A DNA stretch of 64,000 nt from Salvelinus alpinus. Lineage: Eukaryota > Chordata > Actinopteri > Salmoniformes > Salmonidae. This document shows, in pieces, positions 8,004 to 63,911 of this stretch. The notes beneath the pieces are model-generated. The model was not told the DNA's origin and searched no databases. It saw only the letters and a program-made list of their open reading frames with translations. A program made the translations under genes and the position numbers. Position 1 is the first letter of the stretch; each line of letters opens with the position of its first letter. The stretch is taken from contig NC_092098.1 of NCBI RefSeq assembly GCF_045679555.1, positions 21,606,038 to 21,670,037 of the forward strand. The letters run 5' to 3'.

Positions 8004-9561
<1,558 letters not shown>

Positions 9562-9711
9562 TATATTGTTACCATCACATTGTTACCATTACTGTCATAT
9601 GTATATACTGTGTTCTAGTCAAGGCTCATCCTATATAACTACTGCTGTACACGTCTTTTCTATTCATATACGGTCCATACTCTCTACAGTACACACCATT
9701 ATATACATATA
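9562..9711. repeat. RSg-like LINE 3' region, left fragment
   Basis: The sequence around GTCAAGGCTCATCCTATAT resembles the 3' region of the salmonid RSg-1 retroposon (from memory). It appears to continue at 12521-12692, where the tail with GCATTTCGCTACAC and AATTTGATTT is found. Two Tc1 insertions lie between the fragments. Confidence 0.55.
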
Positions 9712-25627: not shown

Positions 25628-25784
25628 AAGTGACACTTTCACAGTATTATTTGATTATTTTGTTTAACGTCTATGGGATCAGTGTTTCCCCCCTCCTGCG
25701 GGATGGTTGAGCTAACGTAGGCTAATGTGATTAGCATGAGGTTGTAAGTAAGTAACAAACAAAAAAAATCCCAGGACATAGACA

Positions 25785-27408
<1,624 letters not shown>

Positions 27409-28560
27409 TATCTGATATGGGCAGAAAGCTTAAATTCTTGTTAATCTTACTGCACTGTACAATTTACAGTAGCTATTACAGTGAAAGAATACCATGCAAT
27501 TGTTTGAGGAGAGTACACAATTATGAACTTTGAAAATGTATTAATAAACCAATTAGGCACAACATTTTGAACAGATATGCAATGGTTCATTGGATCAGTC
27601 TAAAATGTTGCACATACACTAGTGGCCAAAACCTAAATTGCGCCTGGGGTGGAATAATACATTAGGACCTTTCTCTTGCATTTCAAAGATGATGGTACAA
27701 GATCTTTTACCAGATCTAATGTGTTATATTCTCCAACATTAATTTCACATTTCCACAAATGTCAATGTGTTTCCTTTCAAATGGTATCAAGAATATGCAT
27801 ATCCTTGCTTCGGGTCCTGAGCTGCAGGCAGTTAGATTTGGGTATGACATTTTAGGTGAAAATTGGGGGGTAAAGGGTCGGATCCTTTTAACATTATTAC
27901 AGTAAAACAACTTCTGAAAGGGACCCAAGACACCAAGTTTATTCATAATCTTAAATATAGTTATTACAATATTTCATCTGGGGCCCTGTGTTTTGTACAA
28001 TCATAACTAAACACAGGGCCCCAGATGAGAATTACACCCAAAATGTAAGCAGTTGTCTATGGATGGTGGTGGACCATCTGACATAAGAAAAAGGGTACCG
28101 TGTGATTAATAAAAATAAAGGTTAAAATGCAAACATGTCACATGATTGCGCAAAACACAGGGCACTAATCATTCATGACATATATTTGTGGTATTTTCAC
28201 CCTCCCCTTTTTGGCAGTCACATGAACAGTTTCTACTGTCCCGTGACCTGCACAGAACAAATAGAGGCGGCAAGTAGACAGCATCATACCTGCAAACTGG
28301 TCAATGTCTATGGGCATATGGAGAATATATATGTACATTTGAATTACAGCTGTTTAGATTTAGGCATTTCTGTTTTATATCTTATGCGCTATTGGATCAT
28401 TTGTATGTCGCCTATGCTACCTATAGCCAGTAGTTTTCAAATCTACTAAGATCAACTATTAACTAACAAAACACGCATGTGTTAATGGTGTTAAATTACG
28501 TCATCATTTTGCTGTAAACTGATAAGCGGGCAATAAGCGAGCAGTCACCGAGCCAGAGGC
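27409..28560. other. intergenic region upstream of slc12a9
   Basis: No gene recognised. It contains one perfect 19-base hairpin, listed separately. The short open frames show no family features. Confidence 0.5.
27975..28027. repeat. perfect 19-base hairpin
   Basis: Arm CATCTGGGGCCCTGTGTTT at 27975-27993 and its exact reverse complement at 28009-28027, with a 15-base loop. It could be a remnant of a small palindromic element or a structured transcript. It lies about 600 bases upstream of the slc12a9 first exon. Confidence 0.9.
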
Positions 28561-37290: not shown

Positions 37291-47951
<10,661 letters not shown>

Positions 47952-47984
47952 GTCTGGGCAAATTTCACTCACACTTTAGCAGAC

Positions 47985-48110
47985 AGTTCTTCAAAAATAT
48001 GAACTTTGGCTGGTTTTATAGTAGAAATGAACATGCTTACTTAGACATACAACGTGCAACGCTCCGCCCAAGAATCTTAATCTAATCGGCGCATTGGTCA
48101 GGAATATTTC
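47985..48110 (-). promoter_or_regulatory. hsd17b3: core promoter of the hsd17b3-like gene
   Basis: Reading the minus strand toward the gene: CCAAT at 48093-48097, GGGCGG at 48064-48069 and TATAAAA at 48014-48020. The ATG follows about 63 bases after the TATA box, so the 5' UTR would be about 35-40 bases. The spacing (about -110, -80, -30) is that of a textbook TATA promoter. The hAT stack begins 280 bases further upstream. Confidence 0.75.
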
Positions 48111-48898
48111 CTGGTGCGTCATCTCAGCAAATCAATAGGCAAAAGCAGTATGACGCTTCCCCGCACGGTATTCATCGTCCCCCACAAGAGTAATACCAAA
48201 GAGGAAAATGCGACGCGAGAGGTTTTACTCTGGCCCCAAAATATAGATATTTATAGAGCTCTGGCTATACAAATACTACAGTTTATAGCTTCCTGTCCAA
48301 TGTTCCCGCCTCCTTCTACGCCACTTGAACCGTATAGAGAGTAATGATAATGGCGTTTTGTAAAGCCAATGGGAAAATCAGTGGTGGAAAAATTACTCAA
48401 TTACCATACTTGAGTAAAAGTAAAGATATCTTAATAGAAAGTCACTCAAGTAAGAATGAAGGTCACCCAGTAAAATATTACTTGAGTCTAAAAGTCTAAA
48501 AACACTTGTTTTTAAATATACTTAAGTATCAAAAGTAAATGTAACTGCAAAAATATACTTAAGTATCAAAAGTAAAAGTATAAATCATTTCAAATGTCTT
48601 ATTTTAAGTAAACCAAAAGGCACGATTTTCTTGTTTTTTTACTTTATAGATAGCCAGGGGCACACTCCAACAATCAGACATAATTGACAAGCGAAGCATT
48701 TGTGTTTAGTGAGTCCGCCAGATCAGAGCCAATAGGGATGACCAGGGATGTTATTTTGATAAATGCATGAATTGGACCATTTTCCTGTCCTGCTAAGCAT
48801 TCAAAATGTAAGGAGTAGGCTACTTTTGGTTGTCAGGGAAAATGTATGGAGTAAAAAGTACATTATTTTCTTTAGGAATGCAGTCAGGGTTGAGTAGG

Positions 48899-49262
48899 TG
48901 TCACGCCCTGACCTTAGAGATCCTTTTTATGTCTCTATTTTGGTTTGGTCAGGGCGTGAGTTTGGGTGGGCATTCTATGTTTTGTGTTCTATGTTTTCTA
49001 TTTCTGTGTTTGGCTGGGTGTGGTTCTCAATCAGAGGCAGCTGTCTATCGTTGTCTCTGATTGAGAACCATACTTAGGTAGTCTTTTCCCACCTGTGTTT
49101 GTGGGTAGTTGTTTTCTGTTTTTTTTGTGTGTCTGCAACAGACAGAACTGTTTCGGTCGTTCTCGTTGTTGGTTTTGTTATTCAGTGTTCAGTATTATTA
49201 ATAAATCATGAACACTTACCACGCTGCGCTTTGGTCACCTTCTTCTTCAGACGGCCGTTACA
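48899..49262 (+). mobile_element. solo LTR fossil (364 bases)
   Basis: Begins TGTCACGCCCTGACC and ends CCGTTACA, with a perfect 5-base duplication GTAGG at 48894-48898 and 49263-49267. The start resembles the LTRs at 61325 and 63454 read on the minus strand (TGTCACGCCCTGGCC), so they belong to related families. An AATAAATCA motif lies about 65 bases from the end. It inserted 14 bases inside the end of the inner hAT element. Confidence 0.85.
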
Positions 49263-49822
49263 GTAGGTTACTTTCTAAATGTAATCCGTTACAGTTACAA
49301 GTTAGCTGTCCAAAATTGTAATCAGTAACGTAACTTTTGGATGACCCAAACTCAGTAAATGAATTTGATTACATTTCATTACTTTTAGATTACTTTACTC
49401 TTAAGCGGCTTTAGAAGAAGACAAAAATGTATGTTACAAATTGAAATACATCTATTGCAGGATAAATCAATGTTAAAGTTTACATAGCTGGCCATACATG
49501 GATGTTAAAATGTACTTTATGGGTTGGTTATGTGGCTTCTTCTAACCCATCGCTTTCTACTACATATAATAATACGATTAAATTATATCTTTACATTAAA
49601 AACCAGTCTATCAGAATTCCAGTCATTCCAATAAATGTTATACCCCTTGATCTTCAAGAATAGGACTTGGAAATATGGAAGTATAGATTAGATTAATTGT
49701 TTTACTTGAGCATGACCCCAAAACTAAGGACTTTTTAGCTAGCCCTACTCTGTTGTTTATGATTTTGATGTCATGGAGGACTGATTGGGTTCATTGATTC
49801 GAGTTGAAAAATAAATGCTGCG

Positions 49823-50032
49823 AGTGTGCAAAGCTTTCATCAAGGCAAAGGGTGGCTACTTTGAAGAATCTAAAATATATTTTGTATGTTTAACACTTTT
49901 GGTTACTACATGATTCCATATGTGGTATTTCATAGTTTTGATGTCTTCAATATTATTCTACAATGTAGAAAATAGTAAAAATAAAGATAAACCCTTGAAT
50001 GAGTAGGTGTTCTAAAACTTTTGACCGGTAGT
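49823..50032 (+). mobile_element. Tc1-like 3' end remnant (CAGTACCAGTC family)
   Basis: AAAGGGTGGCTACTTTGAAG, then ATTCTACAATGTAGAAAATA, ending TTTTGACCGGTAGTG before TA, matches the inverted left end of the copy at 9712-11205. The rest of the element is missing. Confidence 0.8.
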
Positions 50033-51243
50033 GTATATATAATTTATAAGTCCAAAAATAAATGTAGCAACTACAGATTGCCAATTTAAGTCTATCAAAT
50101 GTGTGCAAGTTTGAGAATGTGTCCATTAGGCCTATGGATTTTTTTTTTATCAGCATGAATTAGGTTGAGCAATAAAAGCCCCGCTTTTATTCCATAGGCT
50201 TGGATCCGCAATATGCAGCTGTTGCAAGAGCGCATTTTTCACTGGCTGTCCACTGGTTTCAAAAACAATGATTAATAGGCAGCTTAAACTTTTTGAATTC
50301 AACCATTATTGGGTTCAAATACACATTTAGATTTGTGAAGAGCCATCCACAATCCGTAAGGCGCAAATAGCTAAATGAGAGAGCAGCAGTGTGATTCACA
50401 CCAATGCGCTAACGTTATGTAAATATCAATAAGTAAAATCCGTATCGTCGTAGACTACACCACTATTGTCATCCTTACCTCCAAGAAAGAGGGTTCATAT
50501 CTACTGTGTGAAAGGCACTCAATGCACGTAACTGACGTGAGGTTTATCTAGTCAATCGGCCATAGCAATGTTTTTTTTCTGTTGGCAGGGTTCACACAGG
50601 GTTCACACACACACACACACTAGCTGAATTTGCAGAGCTAGCACGCAAACTAAAGCAAACGTTAACCATCAAGCTAGCTAGTACCTATTCCATTTATGTG
50701 GCGTCGTCAAAGATGGAATCTTTGCTATCGTCAGTTTATTCCGAGATTAGCATGCAGCTGGAGTGCTTCAAAGTCCCCGTGATAAGGTTAGCGATAAACT
50801 GAAGTACAAACTGAACAGAACAGAACTACACTCTCTTCTACCATTGTCTTAAATATATTTAATGGTCTCGTTGCAAAAGCTAAATTGTCGCTAGTGAACT
50901 TTTTTATTTTTATTTCACCTTTATTTAACCAGGTAGCAAAGATTATAGCAAACACCACAGAAACGGAATTGGTGCTCGCTCGCTTTGCAAATTCAGCTAT
51001 TGTTGGAAGCCAGCCAATATGAAACAAACTATATTAAAATTACGAAAGGTTGCAGCATATGTTGTGTAAATGGTGAACTCATACAGCTGTCAACTCTAGT
51101 CACTGCAATCCGTTTCACATTTGCTAGCTACCTTTTAGATCGAAGCACATATAGAATGATAGAAGATAAGATGATAGAAGCCCATCTCCTACTGTAAATA
51201 ACCTACACAATGTGTGTGTGTAGCCAGCCAGCCAGGTAGAAAA

Positions 51244-53894
51244 ATGGCAGAAAAAAGACGGACATCAGAGTATTTTTCAGTACACCAAAACACAAAGTAA
51301 GAACCCTAGTAGCCTAATATCTCAAAGACTAGTTGATAAAATGTTCATAAGAAAGAAGTGAAATGCTAATGGAAATGTTTCACAATGATGTCATTAGGCA
51401 GAGCAGGCAACAGATGGCACACAGACAGCAGAGTTGGGGACAGATATGCAGGGACAGACTGGCAGAGACAGGGCGTCTCAGGTAAGTTTGTTGAGTCTTT
51501 GTTTGGCAACATTATGAAAGGTTCTCCATTTTTGTTTTTGTAAATAGGGACATAATTGGAAAATGCTATGGATACCCCCACTCTCAACTTAAACAAATCT
51601 TAGTTCAGTCACCAGTTTAAGGCAATGGTATTGCTGTTGTGATTAATTGTGTTGTTTTGGGTACCGGTAGTTATGAGTACGGCAAACACCTTATTTATTT
51701 TCTAGGAGACAGACTGTGAGTCATTGAGGGTGGTGAAAGGGAAAGAGCCAGGGAGAGAGACTTCAGAGAACAATGTCACAGCCACGGCAGGACCAGGTGT
51801 CACCCTTGTTGCCAGCAGCACCAGTATAGGGGACAGTGGCACAGCATTGTCCAGTTACCTCAGTGATGGCACAAAACTATATCAGCCACACCCACAATTT
51901 ATAGAACCGCAAACTCTTGCCAACAGAGTGTTGACGTTTCAAGAGAGATAGTTTCGCGATTTCCCCTGGCTACATTATAATCCATCAATAAAAGGAGTGT
52001 TGTGTTTTCACTGTAGCAAAGGGTTTTCAAGCCAGCCATCTTTTGGCCAAAGAGCAGATGCTGCCTTCATTAGTGCAGGATTTAGGAACTGGAGAAAAGC
52101 CATTGAAAAATTCACAGCACATCAAAACTGCCAAACCCACTGCCACTTTGTAATTGTAACAGCACACCAGCTAAATCCAATCAGTGTCCAGTTATCCAGC
52201 GCGTGGGGTAAACAGCAGGATGACGCAAGGCATTGCTTGATGAAAATTGTTAGTTCGGTGCGGCATGTAGTAAGACAGGTACAAGCCTTTAGAGGCCACA
52301 CGGATGACAGTGGGAATTTATACCAGCTTTTGAAACTTAGGGCAGAAGAGGATGATCCCATTTTACTGAAGTGGTTAACAGAGCGTACCACAATGTACAA
52401 AGGCCCCAAAGCACGGAATGAAATTCTGAACATCATGGCCAATACAGTCATTCGAGCCATTGCAGCTGAGATTAGGTCTCTTCCGATTGTACAATTTTCA
52501 GTAATTGTTGATGGTACTCAAGATGTCTCTGGTGCTGAACAGGAGAGTGTCTGTCTGCGTTATGTTGACCATGACCTTGTCCCTCACAAGGAGTTTATTG
52601 GGCTGTACAGGGTGTCGGAGACAACAGGCGAGGGCATTGCGGAAGTGGCAACTGATGTGTTGTTGAGGCTCAATTTGCCCATGTCTGGCTTACGTGGGCA
52701 GAGTTATGATAGTGCCTCAAACATGGCAGGAAAATACACAGGTGCACAGGAAATTGTGAGGAGGCAGCAGCCATTAGCCCTCTATGTACATTGTGGAGCA
52801 CACAGTAAATCTGATTACACGGGCTGGCTGCTCAGCCTCCCCACTGATCCGGGATTCCCTTTCTTGGGTCCATCAGTTAGGTGTCCTCTATGGCCAGTCA
52901 GGAAAGTTTAAGAGCATGTTTGAATCAATAGTCACGTCCAAAGATACAAATCTGACCACCCTGAAACCCCTATGTCCAACAAGGTGGACTGTGCGGAATA
53001 CTGCTATTAGAGCTGTGCTAGGGCAGTATGAGCGGGTACTAAGCAGCCTAGAGGAGATGGCAAAAACTGCATCCAAGACAGCTTCAACTGCCAGTGGCTT
53101 GTTCGAGCACTTCAGCAAAGGCAAGACTGTGTTGGGCCTCACACTTGCCTCTGCTGTTCTTGGAGAGCTTGAATGTCTAAACATTTCACTGCAGAAGAAA
53201 ACTCAGACTGTCTCTGGTATGCAGGCTGCAGTCGAGTGTGTGTGGTCATCTCTTAGGGGCAAGAGAAATGACGAAAGCTACCTTTGACTGTATGAGAAAG
53301 CAACAGCATTGATTGACTATTGAATCCATTGAGACGCACTCAAGACGATTTGCTGGCAAAGCAGTGGATCACTATAGGGCAGAATTCTTTTAAGTGTTGG
53401 ATTGTGTGGAGGTTCAGTTTGTCGACCGTTTTGACCAGGACAGTCTAAACGTCCTGCAAAAGTTGGAAAGAGCGCTTCTCACGGGGGAGTTGGATGAGTC
53501 TCTAGATCAGTACCCAGAGCTGAACATAGATTCTCTTTCAGTGCAGATCCCTCTCTTTCACAACAAATACCCCTGTAGCAGCAGTGGAGAGGCAGCAGAG
53601 GTCCTCAGGAGGCTTTCAGTGGAGGTGCGGGGGTTGTTTGACCAAGTTGAGGTGCTGATCAGAATTTTGTTTGTGGTGCCAGTGTCTTCATGTGAGGCTG
53701 AGAGGAGTTTCAGTGCACTCCGCAGGTTAAAGACTTGGCTACGGGCTAGCATGGGCCAAGAGATACTGAACGGCGTAGTTGTCTGTAATGTACATAAAGA
53801 CAGGCTGGACAGTCTCAAGAGGGAAAATATCTGCCAGCAATTTGTTGGATCCATTGAAACCCACAAACATATGTTCAGTTCTTTTGTTCAGTAG
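51244..53894 (+). pseudogene. hAT transposase remnant (TTF zinc finger, ZMYM1-like)
   Basis: A likely first exon reads MAEKRRTSEYFSVHQNT with a GTAAGA donor near 51296. Later frames: 51724-51948, then 51952-52800 with FRDFPWLHYNPSIKGVLCFH (TTF-type zinc-finger start) and a DUF4371-like region (SVIVDGTQDVSGAEQESVCL; GQSYDSASNMAGKYTGAQEI). Next, 52784-53284 has PLCPTRWTVRNTAI, and 53394-53894 ends in the hAT dimerisation region (SSCEAERSFSALRRLKTWLR). Breaks include an in-frame TAG at 51949, a frameshift near 52800, a stop at 53285 and a stop before 53394, so it is dead. The overall order matches BED/TTF-type hAT transposases often annotated as ZMYM1-like. Confidence 0.85.
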
Positions 53895-53903
53895 TGTGTA
53901 TAG

Positions 53904-54130
53904 CAGTGGTTCTCAACCTTTTTTGGGGTACTGGAACCCCTGCATATTTTGAGGCAAGGCAGGCAAGGTTTTGAGCGGTCCTCAGGGACCTCCACCCCCT
54001 CTATTATATGTAAAGTTACTGGAACCCTTGTGGTACTGAATACGTTCATTACACTTTTTTATTTCACGGACCCCTTTCAATTACACCAGGGACCCCTAGG
54101 GGTCCATGGACCCCTGTTTGAGAACCCCTG
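53904..54130. mobile_element. hAT-type MITE inside the inner hAT element
   Basis: Starts CAGTGGTTCTCAACC and ends GTTTGAGAACCCCTG. A perfect 8-base duplication GTGTATAG lies at 53896-53903 and 54131-54138. It sits just after the transposase stop codon. Confidence 0.9.
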
Positions 54131-55300
54131 GTGTATAGTATGATATTTGTTCTTTTGTTTAGTAGTTTTCAGTTTTTAGTACATGACAGTACACTTACTA
54201 ATTATTTAATGTTATTTTATTTAAAATTGCATACTTTGTGTGACATACTTGTACATAGCTGCTGTTTGAAGAGTTGAGACACTGACTGAAGGATATTTTG
54301 GTTGATTTAGTTGGGTTATTCATTGAAGTAGTTATTTTGCTTTTAGAACTGTACTTATTTGTATCTTTTTGTTCTTGTAAAACTATTGTAGTAGACTCAG
54401 GCCAGTGGAGACCAACTTTGTGATGGTTCTCAATGGAGATTATTTAAGACGAGATCACACCATGTTTATTGTATTTACGAAAACTGCACCCATACAGTGT
54501 ACAGTACCATTGCCACCTACTGGCCTTTCTTGGTATTGCTGGTTTTAAGTACAAATACCTGCATACATACTGGACTGATAAGCAACACTGCTATAACTAT
54601 TATTAGTAGTAGTATTATAATGATTTAAACATTTGAACAAGTTGGGACAACCCTTCAGTTAACTACTGTACCTATCAATTATCCAGTAGTAGTGATTATG
54701 GTTCCTCAATATACATTTTACATTTTACAACGTAGGCTATGTGTTACAGCACTACTTTTGGTGTCCCCCTCAGGAATTGCTCTTGAGAAAATGTCATGTA
54801 ATTGTCCCCTCCAAAGTTGATATCAGATTTTCGCCCCTGTGTAGCCTACAAAAGCCTACTCCTGCTCTTTTCCCGCGATCCATCAAACACATTTGGTGTG
54901 TCATCAGTGGTCTCTGATTTGTGGTCAGACTCGCTCAGGTGGAACAAACTTAAAGTTGCGCCTTTTTTCAATGCTGATTTGAATGTCTTTGAGAAAACAG
55001 AACTGTCAAATATTTTTTTTCAGAATTTAAAAGTAATCCACGAAGTAATCATCTAGTTTTTCCAAAATATCCGTTTTCTGATTACAATATTTTTGCTGCT
55101 AATGTAACAGATTACAGTTACCGTTTTTTGTAATCCCTTACATGTAACTTGTAATCCGTTACCCCCCCAACCCTGAATGTAGTGGACAAAAAGTAAAAGT
55201 TCTCAAAAATATAAATAGTAAAGTATAGATACCCCCAAAAACTACTTTAGTAGTACTTTAAACTATTTTTACTTAAATACTATACACCACTGGGGGAAAT

Positions 55301-57250
55301 GAATGGAGTTTTTATAGTGTTTTTGAATAAATGCTGAAAATAATGTCTGTGGTAAACACAGGCTTAAGATCTTATCTGTTTTGATCTATGAGATAATCTT
55401 AATCAACTAACTTCACTTTTATTTTTTTTATTTTAAGCATTTATGTAATAAAAAAAGGACATAAAGCACATAAAAGGCTTCATAATTCATAAAGTCCATG
55501 TTAACTGACTGATATTATCTCATAGAACAAAACGTATGATGTTTATTACAAAACCCTATTCTTTCCCCATTCCTTTTCCCCATATGAATGGCTGAATGAA
55601 CCAGAGGTAACTCATATCCGTTTTTTTGGACTTCAAGCTGGCGAGCTCTATTGGTATGACATCAATTACAATGTCATGTTCAAAGTTCACAATTTTACCT
55701 TTTGTAGGTGAGAGCAGAACTACTTTGAAATAGTTTTGACCGTGTTTAAAACTTGGGAACATACAACATGGGCTCTTTCACATCATCTACACATGTGGCA
55801 TTGCAGTCGTATCAATACAGTGTAACAAGCAATCAGTTATCTGTAAGTTGCGTGGCTCCATTGTAGAGGCTGTGCTTGTTATGTACTTTGTATCACTTGC
55901 TTGTCCCATGCAGATAAATGACCAAACGCAATAGTGGCAGATTAACTCATTGTGTGCGGTGATGTTTAAAAACAACATGTTTATGTTATGCTTATAGATA
56001 AGCTAAAAATGTGCATGAGTAAGTGTTCATTATCATAATTGAGAGTGTGACGTCTCTCCTCTGCTGTACATTCATCCCTGTGATAGCTTTAGGGCTTGTT
56101 CACTGTACAAACTGTGTGCTTCCCCTCCATGCAATCTCCATAGTTTTATAATAACCCCCATAGTCCTTGGTTTATGATAAGGTAATACACTTGTAGGCCT
56201 ACTAATATCATTGAGATGTTTCATATTCTTAAAACATGGATACCCTCTGCCCCCTGCAAAAGGTTGACATGAAACATTTGTTAAGCACTATATTTGAAAA
56301 AAAGAACGTTTGCACTCGGGTAAAGGTTAATGAAGAAGAATTAATAGGGACAGGATATTCAAGTTTTGGCAATGCTACTACTGGAGCCTATAGGTGCATG
56401 TTAGTGGAGCAGTTCATGTTGAGAGAGAGAATGTGATAGAATCTGATTGTACTGCCAGTCCCTCAAACAATCAGATGTCAATCCTATGGTTTGGATAGGG
56501 CTTTTACATAACATTCAAAGTGTTGTTGCAGTATGGAGTGTGTATTAATGTATGGAAATAGTGGAATGAAGAATGGAAGCTCTGTTCAGTCAAATTAATA
56601 CAGTACTGCACAATGCTATGTAGGCCTATTACTATAATAATCAAAGTTAGATCATTATGACGGTCAAAGATAAAAGTAAAAAATAAAGTCAATATAAAAA
56701 TAAAAACAGTTATGGAGGGAGAGTCGCTCTGAATGGGAGTCAAGTTAGATGACTGACTGTAATGTAAATGTTGAGCGGCTTCACTGCAGGTAGATTGTAT
56801 GTTTTAATATTCACAAAAAAAATCTAAACATCTGACCATATATGCTATATAACACTAGAGGGAGCCAGCAGAATTGCCTTTACTGGCACCTCAGTCAAGA
56901 AGCAGCCAACAGAGAGACTGATAGGGAGCCTACTGGCACCTAAACAGGTTGTTGAGGTGCCAGTAGTTGAGGTGTCAGAGATTGTCACAGTTGGGGATTC
57001 TTAATTTCATCACTCTGTTGTCACTATGATTTTATCTGAGCTTCAGGAAATTCAAATGAGCCTCGTGATTTACATAAATCCAGTGAAAACCTGCAGTTCT
57101 TTTTACTCTTTCTCTCTCGATTTAACGCTAAAGTACCAGACATAATAAATGTCCTACTACTGTAGGTCCTACTACTGCGACATTCAAATGTACAAAAATG
57201 TATCTGAAATGCGGCAATACACATCAACAACCATCATTTTATATAGCTTA
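55301..57250. other. intergenic region, no gene recognised
   Basis: AT-rich sequence with no open frame that shows a family feature. The largest, 66-68 codons, lack recognisable motifs. A small hairpin lies at 56930-56966. Confidence 0.5.
56930..56966. repeat. 12-base-arm hairpin and repeated CTGGCACCT
   Basis: CTACTGGCACCT at 56930-56941 and its exact complement at 56955-56966. The same TACTGGCACCT occurs again at 56881, and AGGTGTCAG follows at 56970. Confidence 0.7.
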
Positions 57251-57258
57251 ATAACACA

Positions 57259-57865
57259 CAGTGGAGTGAAGTAACTTAAGAAAAAATACTTTGAAGTACT
57301 ACTTCGTTTTCTGTATTTCACTTTACTATTTATATTTTTGACAGCCTTTACTTTTACTCCACTACACCCCCCCCAAAAAAAAATATGTACTTCTTACTTC
57401 CATACATTTTCCCTAGCACCCAAAAGTAGGCCTACAAGTTACATTTTGAATGTTCAGAAAGGACAGTAATATGGTCTAATTCACACACCTATCAGTATAA
57501 CGTGTTGTCATCCCTACTGCCTCTTATCTGGCAGACTCAGTAAACACAAATATTGCGTTTGTAAATGATGTCTGAGTGTTGCAGTGTGCCCCTGCTGTCC
57601 ATAAATACAATGTTTTTTTTAAACCAAAAATTGGGCGTTTGGTTTGCTTAATATAAGGAATTTGATTTATAGCATTTACTGTTACTTTTTCCGTTTTCCA
57701 CCACTGTACTTAACTACATTTAAATCCAGAGTACATTTAAAACCAGATATTTTTTTACTTTTACTCAAGTAGTATTTTACTGGGTGACTTTCACTTGAGT
57801 TATTTTATATCAGGTATCTTTACTTTTACTCAAGTATTAACAATTAAGTACTTTTCCCACCACTG
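57259..57865. mobile_element. complete hAT-type MITE, CAGTGGTG family
   Basis: CAGTGGAGTGAAGTAAC at the left and TTCCCACCACTG at the right, with a perfect 8-base duplication ATAACACA (57251-57258, 57866-57873). It is a 607-base full-length relative of the outer element at 48379-55292 in the opposite orientation. Confidence 0.9.
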
Positions 57866-61324: not shown

Positions 61325-61782
61325 TGTCACGATCGTCTTGATGAGGAAGAGTGGACCAAGGCGCAGCGTGATATAAATACATCCTCTTTTTATTATACGA
61401 AGAAGATGAACATGAAACGAAACACTTTACAAACTAACAAAACAACAAACGACCGTGAAGCTACAAAACGAAAGTGCACACACAAGCTACTAACATTTAG
61501 ACATAGACGATTACCTACAACAGCCTAATGCCTATGGCTGCCTTAAATATGGTTCCCAATCAGAGACAACAATAAACAGCTGTCTCTGATTGAGAACCAA
61601 ACCAGGCAACCATAGACTTTCCTAAACACCATCACTGAACACAACCCCATACACTCTACAAAACCCCCTATACAATACAACCACCCAAGACGAGACAAAT
61701 ACACACAAACATCCCCCATGTCACACCCTGACCTAACTAAAATAATACAGAAAACAAAGATAACTAAGGCCAGGGCGTGACA
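61325..61782 (-). repeat. downstream LTR of the element 61325-63911
   Basis: 458 bases, almost identical to 63454-63911. It carries an inverted pair of AGAGACA blocks around AATAAACAGCTG that also occurs, diverged, in the solo LTR at 48899-49262. Confidence 0.9.
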
Positions 61783-63453: not shown

Positions 63454-63911
63454 TGTCACAATCGTCTTGATGAGGAAGAGTGGACCAAGGCGCAGCGTGA
63501 TATAAATACATCCTCTTTTTATTATACGAAGAAGATGAACATGAAACGAAACACTTTACAAACTAACAAAACAACAAACGACCGTGAAGCTACAAAACAA
63601 AAGTGCACACACAAGCTACTAACGTTTAGACATAGACAATTACCCACAACAGCCTAATGCCTATGGCTGCCTTAAATATGGCTCCCAATCAGAGACAACA
63701 ATAAACAGCTGTCTCTGATTGAGAACCAAACCAGGCAACCATAGACTTTCCTAAACACCATCACTGAACACAACCCCATACACTCTACAAAACCCCCTAT
63801 ACAATACAACCACCCAAGACGAGACAAATACACACAAACATCCCCCATGTCACACCCTGACCTAACTAAAATAATACAGAAAACAAAGATAACTAAGGCC
63901 AGGGCGTGACA
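63454..63911 (-). repeat. upstream LTR of the element 61325-63911
   Basis: 458 bases, about 98-99% identical by eye to 61325-61782. In element orientation it is the 5' LTR, followed directly by the interior beginning AGAATTACCCACC. Confidence 0.9.

Follow-up and report, generated by a model that had tools for sequence, protein, structure and literature searches.

An unusually readable pile of nested transposons upstream of a short-chain dehydrogenase gene in Salvelinus alpinus

The locus and its layers

The window, by which we mean the whole 64,000-nucleotide stretch of Salvelinus alpinus DNA that was analysed (C13:21606038-21670037, within a 2.37-Gb genome), contains a gene whose first and further exons all lie on the minus strand. 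Its protein belongs to the short-chain dehydrogenase superfamily, and the assignment goes no deeper; the label hsd17b3, given in a first-pass annotation of the same DNA, is plausible and is kept here as an assumption, orthology to this rather than another HSD17B being presumed. The repeat types are likewise presumed to be those of a salmonid. Literature on hsd17b3 in combination with transposons, promoters or duplication, judged by title and abstract, offered nothing on the present locus. The outermost transposon starts 282 bases from a putative CCAAT motif by direct reading, in agreement with the earlier figure of about 280 bases, and the stack does sit upstream of the gene, as had been proposed. 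The features are as follows.

47775..47951, minus strand: exon 1 of the neighbouring short-chain dehydrogenase gene (presumably hsd17b3-like)
48093-48097, minus strand: putative CCAAT motif (ATTGG on the plus strand) upstream of exon 1, by direct reading
48371..48378, no strand: left target copy of the outer MITE, GGGAAAAT; the C13 duplicate has the same left copy
48379..48884, plus strand: left arm of the outer hAT MITE, including the left target copy of layer two (48877-48884); copies elsewhere start at 48379
48885..50476, plus strand: left part of the non-coding CAGGGTTG hAT, interrupted by an LTR; left end as in family copies, right boundary at 50476 from the duplicate
48894-48898 and 49263-49267: perfect GTAGG target copies of the solo LTR, by direct reading
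48899..49262, plus strand: solo LTR (TG...CA), by direct reading and from the empty site in family copies
about 49822..50035, plus strand: 3' remnant of a Tc1-like element, whose right junction in the window recurs in the duplicate, L046 and L053
50477-50485: junction bases left of the 4.35-kb hAT
50486..54839, plus strand: left-truncated 4.35-kb hAT of another family with a broken transposase, from 19 copies; absent from the C13 duplicate
51706..53894, plus strand: broken transposase pieces, searched separately (DUF4371, 3.5e-19; Dimer_Tnp_hAT, 8e-06)
53896-53903 and 54131-54138: perfect GTGTATAG target copies of the third MITE, by direct reading
53904..54130, plus strand: third hAT MITE, occupying one position throughout the 19 fetched carriers
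54840..55175, plus strand: right part of the CAGGGTTG hAT; 16 of 40 scored family matches end exactly at 55175
55176..55292, plus strand: right arm of the outer hAT MITE, including the right target copy of layer two (55176-55183), from copies elsewhere
55293..55300, no strand: right target copy of the outer MITE, GGGGAAAT

The pile of old transposons upstream of this steroid-enzyme-like gene does exist, but the first-pass annotation misread how it is layered and in what order its parts arrived, and there is one layer more than was then reported. All copy comparisons below are drawn from one genome. Elsewhere in the window, four long repeats (8004-9565, 25778-27411, 38038-39496 and 42051-43669) are about 90-93% alike; broken transposase-like frames, which we take to be of Tc1 type, can be read in the last two, both located between exons of the dehydrogenase gene.

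The outer MITE and the non-coding element inside it

The outer element measures about 0.6 kb, carries CAGTGGTG at both ends and gave no transposase domain match. Its target copies agree at seven of eight positions, as the first-pass annotation had it. Its family yielded 2710 candidates, 40 of which were scored, and eight loci were retrieved: the window itself (L001), a duplicate on the same chromosome (L007), a partial match (L003), and L002, L004, L005, L006 and L008. These last five are all unbroken across the window's split point, past 48884, and all four copies assessed are flanked by 8-bp target copies, perfect in L004 and L008 and matching at seven of eight positions in L005 and L006. 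Shortness, high copy number, constant ends and these target copies together identify a hAT MITE. At the unsplit site L004, L005 and L006 read a single AATGTAGT, the empty site of layer two, and L002 and L008 are one base off it. A second, unbroken member of the family lies at 57259-57865 between perfect 8-bp target copies ATAACACA.

The element that splits this MITE has the ends CAGGGTTG...CAACCCTG and target copies that again agree at seven of eight positions (AATGCAGT at 48877-48884, AATGTAGT at 55176-55183); this part of the original description stands, and the empty sites elsewhere confirm it. The element is non-coding and about 1.6 kb long. Its right part, 54840-55175, comes from a very large family, with 4067 candidates and 40 of them scored; 20 of the 40, including the 16 that end exactly at 55175, end no more than 2 bases off, and 11 stop 13-43 bases short. 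Ten loci were read besides the window and the duplicate (L045-L054). The left end recurs in all five that reach it, four reading CAGGGTTG and one CAGGCTTG, with one mismatch, and target copies agree at seven of eight positions in two of three assessable loci, none being found in L049. Inverted ends, 8-bp target copies and recurring ends mark the element as a hAT, and the proposed end sequences recur as element ends elsewhere for both the outer MITE and the CAGGGTTG family. The right flanks of nine of the loci and of the window share no similarity with one another on the plus strand, so that these are independent insertions of the CAGGGTTG carrier. All ten loci hold a 67-bp stretch that is missing from the window (44 of the 67 bases being matched in L048), and the transposase element was absent from all ten, bar one 36-base reverse match in L045; we attribute this match, and others of 17-45 bases in other frames, to chance or to common repeats. 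The window's transposase is of a different family, and the CAGGGTTG element, having none of its own, is assumed to be non-autonomous.

Within its left part lies the solo LTR, recognizable by its TG...CA ends, its target copies, the missing internal region and an empty site: the five CAGGGTTG copies reaching the position all read GGGTAGGTTAC, with a single GTAGG, so that the LTR must have been inserted locally, as the first-pass annotation had also concluded. The start of the LTR recurs as an end at window position 61782, at about 63911, and in L003. Two 458-base direct repeats (61325-61782 and 63454-63911), 98.7% alike and about 2.1 kb apart, have ends like those of the solo LTR and are probably a short LTR element.

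The remnant at 49822-50035, which we take to be of the Tc1 family, presents a more complicated case. It retains one end only, lies in a TA-rich stretch and has several relatives elsewhere in the window. Its status could be read in six of the ten CAGGGTTG loci: it is present in L046 and L053, while L045, L049, L051 and L054 have about 400-500 bases of native sequence at the site. Left junctions differ, L046 retaining more of the Tc1 element and the window and duplicate having 26 bases fewer than L053, and the right flanks of L046 and L053 are unlike one another and unlike that of the window. The remnant is therefore likely to have been a passenger of the CAGGGTTG element, a reading that these copies support well, if less securely than the corresponding one for the third MITE; an independent Tc1 insertion at the right junction is conceivable, since the junction lies in a TA-rich stretch.

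The transposase-bearing element and its passenger

The first-pass annotation had described layer two as one autonomous 6.3-kb hAT (48885-55175) within the outer MITE, into which the LTR, the Tc1 element and the third MITE had each been inserted on the spot. Matching CAGGGTTG ends and target copies agreeing at seven of eight positions do enclose the whole 6.3 kb, the third MITE does lie between perfect target copies, and the part concerning the LTR is correct. The transposase part, however, proves to be a family separate from the outer part, each with its own ends. Its search returned 380 candidates, of which 40 were scored and 19 fetched besides the window (L020-L038); these are the best-scoring carriers, and others free of the MITE may exist. 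Contiguous matches of all 19 to the window are confined to 50486-54839, with a tolerance of up to 4 bases; L021, L025 and L037 in addition match the outer MITE or the LTR separately, in their flanks. The right end falls at 54839 in 17 of the 19, all closing in ...CGCCCCTG, and the exact end was not found in L025 and L030. Beyond the 17 listed right junctions the flanks differ, with the exception of L023 and L024, which share one. A family that matches contiguously only inside these limits, with a right end of its own, constitutes an extra layer, and the 6.3-kb unit is thus two elements, a CAGGGTTG element of about 1.6 kb and a separate hAT of 4.35 kb; the single-element version is almost certainly mistaken.

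To the left of 50486, 16 listed transposase copies have sequence in common that is missing from the window. Four extended copies reach the left end of the family; three of the four have perfect 8-bp target copies and measure 4.37-4.66 kb, and in the fourth (copy c1) a perfect left target copy was looked for and not found. Because the family extends left to its own end, the window copy falls short by about 250 bases there. It has hAT transposase domains, and its relatives have the 8-bp target duplication; lacking its own left end and left target copy, it owes its hAT membership to the family. Its longest open stretch is 319 codons, whereas the other 19 copies reach as many as 602. One internal deletion is common to nine of the 40 scored family copies; it joins query 1-1429 to 2617-2661, so that query 1430-2616, or window 52669-53856, is missing; this derivative has itself spread.

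The third MITE, a short element with inverted ends and perfect GTGTATAG target copies, lies 9 bases beyond the transposase stop codon. It occupies this one position in every one of the 19 carriers, some copies having internal losses and the L029 copy lacking a match to its last 35 bases, and so entered the carrier before the copies spread. By this comparison it was not inserted at the locus at all and arrived within the 4.35-kb hAT. What was said of the Tc1 remnant and the third MITE in the first-pass annotation consequently survives as to their presence and the perfect GTGTATAG copies, and fails as to local insertion for the third MITE, given all 19 carriers, and probably for the Tc1 remnant, given two of six CAGGGTTG copies. 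That the MITE was kept for some benefit to its carrier, for example as part of a 3' untranslated region, making the carrier a composite element, seems improbable to us.

The segmental duplicate and the order of events

A duplicate of the region lies 604 kb from the window, at C13:22258523-22264333. It aligns to the promoter (97%), to part of the outer MITE, with the same left target copy GGGAAAAT, to part of the CAGGGTTG element with its Tc1 remnant, and to parts of the right flank. The two were compared in twelve segments, of which eleven gave distances of 0.008-0.040 and one, close to a rearranged end, 0.075. In the 40 kb around it (C13:22240000-22279999; L007 and L009-L012) there are matches to exon 1 (first 46 residues) and to the final two exons; exons 2-6 were not found in this stretch, bar a weak match to exon 3 (39%, E 0.048), and the gene copy there is probably a fragment. 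At 48242-48248, some 150 bases from the CCAAT motif on its upstream side, the duplicate has about 105 extra bases, which either the window has lost or the duplicate has gained.

It is highly improbable that the duplicate stems from an assembly error in which an allele was misplaced, and so dates nothing: it does lie on the same contig, with a promoter stretch 97% alike, but the distances are in our judgement more than those of alleles, and the several rearrangements and the absence of exons 2-6 from the stretch searched speak against it as well.

At the site of the 4.35-kb element the duplicate is uninterrupted: it keeps the 67 bp native to the family and has TGTAGCCT once. Barring a precise loss of the element, this is the state before insertion, and the 4.35-kb hAT would then most likely have arrived after the duplication. 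We consider it unlikely that the element predates the duplication and was later cleanly lost from the duplicate. In favour of such a loss, the duplicate is missing other stretches, 48680-49419 and 55293-56250, its exons 2-6 were not found, and the two C13 copies lie about as far apart as the window's transposase copy does from the 19 others (0.028-0.046); against this, the 67 native bases and single TGTAGCCT would demand an exact loss, and the damaged left junction is the window's own. A late arrival of the 4.35-kb hAT is hence the reading followed below. As the loss of 48680-49419 takes the LTR site with it, the LTR may have come before or after the duplication.

The Ss4R whole-genome duplicate was sought with one flank only (window 47900-48378), as the first-pass annotation had recommended, and may have been missed. 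Apart from the window and its C13 counterpart, the sole genome-wide match was C1:42088490 (50 bp); it was rejected, since the 20 kb around it match the window in repeats and a short stretch only, with no convincing exon.

A block that begins 282 bases from a CCAAT motif could have altered the control of the neighbouring gene, by displacing distal elements or supplying putative new ones. We regard this as very unlikely: the stretch adjoining the block is 99% kept in the copy beside the apparent gene fragment, and the layers are members of high-copy families.

We think it very likely that four insertions occurred at the locus itself, two of them bringing a passenger, with a layer two of two elements and a late 4.35-kb hAT. 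A hAT MITE first inserted at GGGAAAAT upstream of the gene. The non-coding CAGGGTTG hAT, with the Tc1 remnant probably already aboard, then entered this MITE at AATGTAGT, and an LTR retrotransposon, before or after the next step, entered the CAGGGTTG element at GTAGG, later to be reduced to a solo LTR. Copies elsewhere in the genome demonstrate these three insertions, and also that layer two consists of two elements and that the third MITE was a passenger. In a fourth step the region would have been duplicated within the chromosome, after which a transposase-bearing hAT of about 4.6 kb, carrying the third MITE, would have landed at TGTAGCCT in this copy only, a timing that the duplicate supports well. 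A later deletion, perhaps between short CCTT matches, may have removed the left 250 or so bases of this hAT and 67 bp of host; this mechanism, like any absolute date, is inferred.

Arrival order cannot be read off in the manner the first-pass annotation had proposed, from the target duplications, given the two-element structure and the passengers: the third MITE and probably the Tc1 element came in carriers. Target duplications alone are insufficient for this purpose, because a carrier can bring a perfect duplication along with its passenger. Window and duplicate form a natural pair in which a site near a steroid-enzyme-like gene can be seen before and after a late insertion.

The elements themselves are of familiar kinds. 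The hAT MITEs of teleosts are the class with which the outer and third elements compare, both being short and without a transposase domain match, the outer one with 8-bp target copies around it; the only difference here is the nesting. The 4.35-kb element resembles the hAT superfamily with DUF4371 and a C-terminal dimerisation domain (PF14291, PF05699) in both Pfam domains, in its 8-bp target copies and in its short imperfect inverted ends, and differs in that the window copy is left-truncated and broken, with a MITE 9 bases past the transposase stop codon. The TG...CA ends, 5-bp LTR target copies and Tc1-like 3' end are those we take to be usual for solo LTRs and Tc1 remnants of salmonids, the Tc1 remnant differing here in having apparently been spread by a hAT carrier.

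The locus is therefore of an ordinary kind with an unusually readable history, and provides a well-resolved new case of nested salmonid transposons. A passage of de Boer et al. (2007; PMC2198921) equates the split between Salmo, Oncorhynchus and Salvelinus with a similarity of 94-95% and dates it to 14-23 million years ago; setting the window distances against that similarity suggests, as a rough estimate, that the duplication and the late insertion are younger than the split. Nested DNA transposons in salmonid loci have already been described in that study, which in the parts that concern us likewise presents transposons within transposons and family members a few percent apart. The families there are others, for example a copy in the DTSsa11 transposon, whereas at the present locus hAT elements carry passengers and a segmental duplicate gives the state before insertion.
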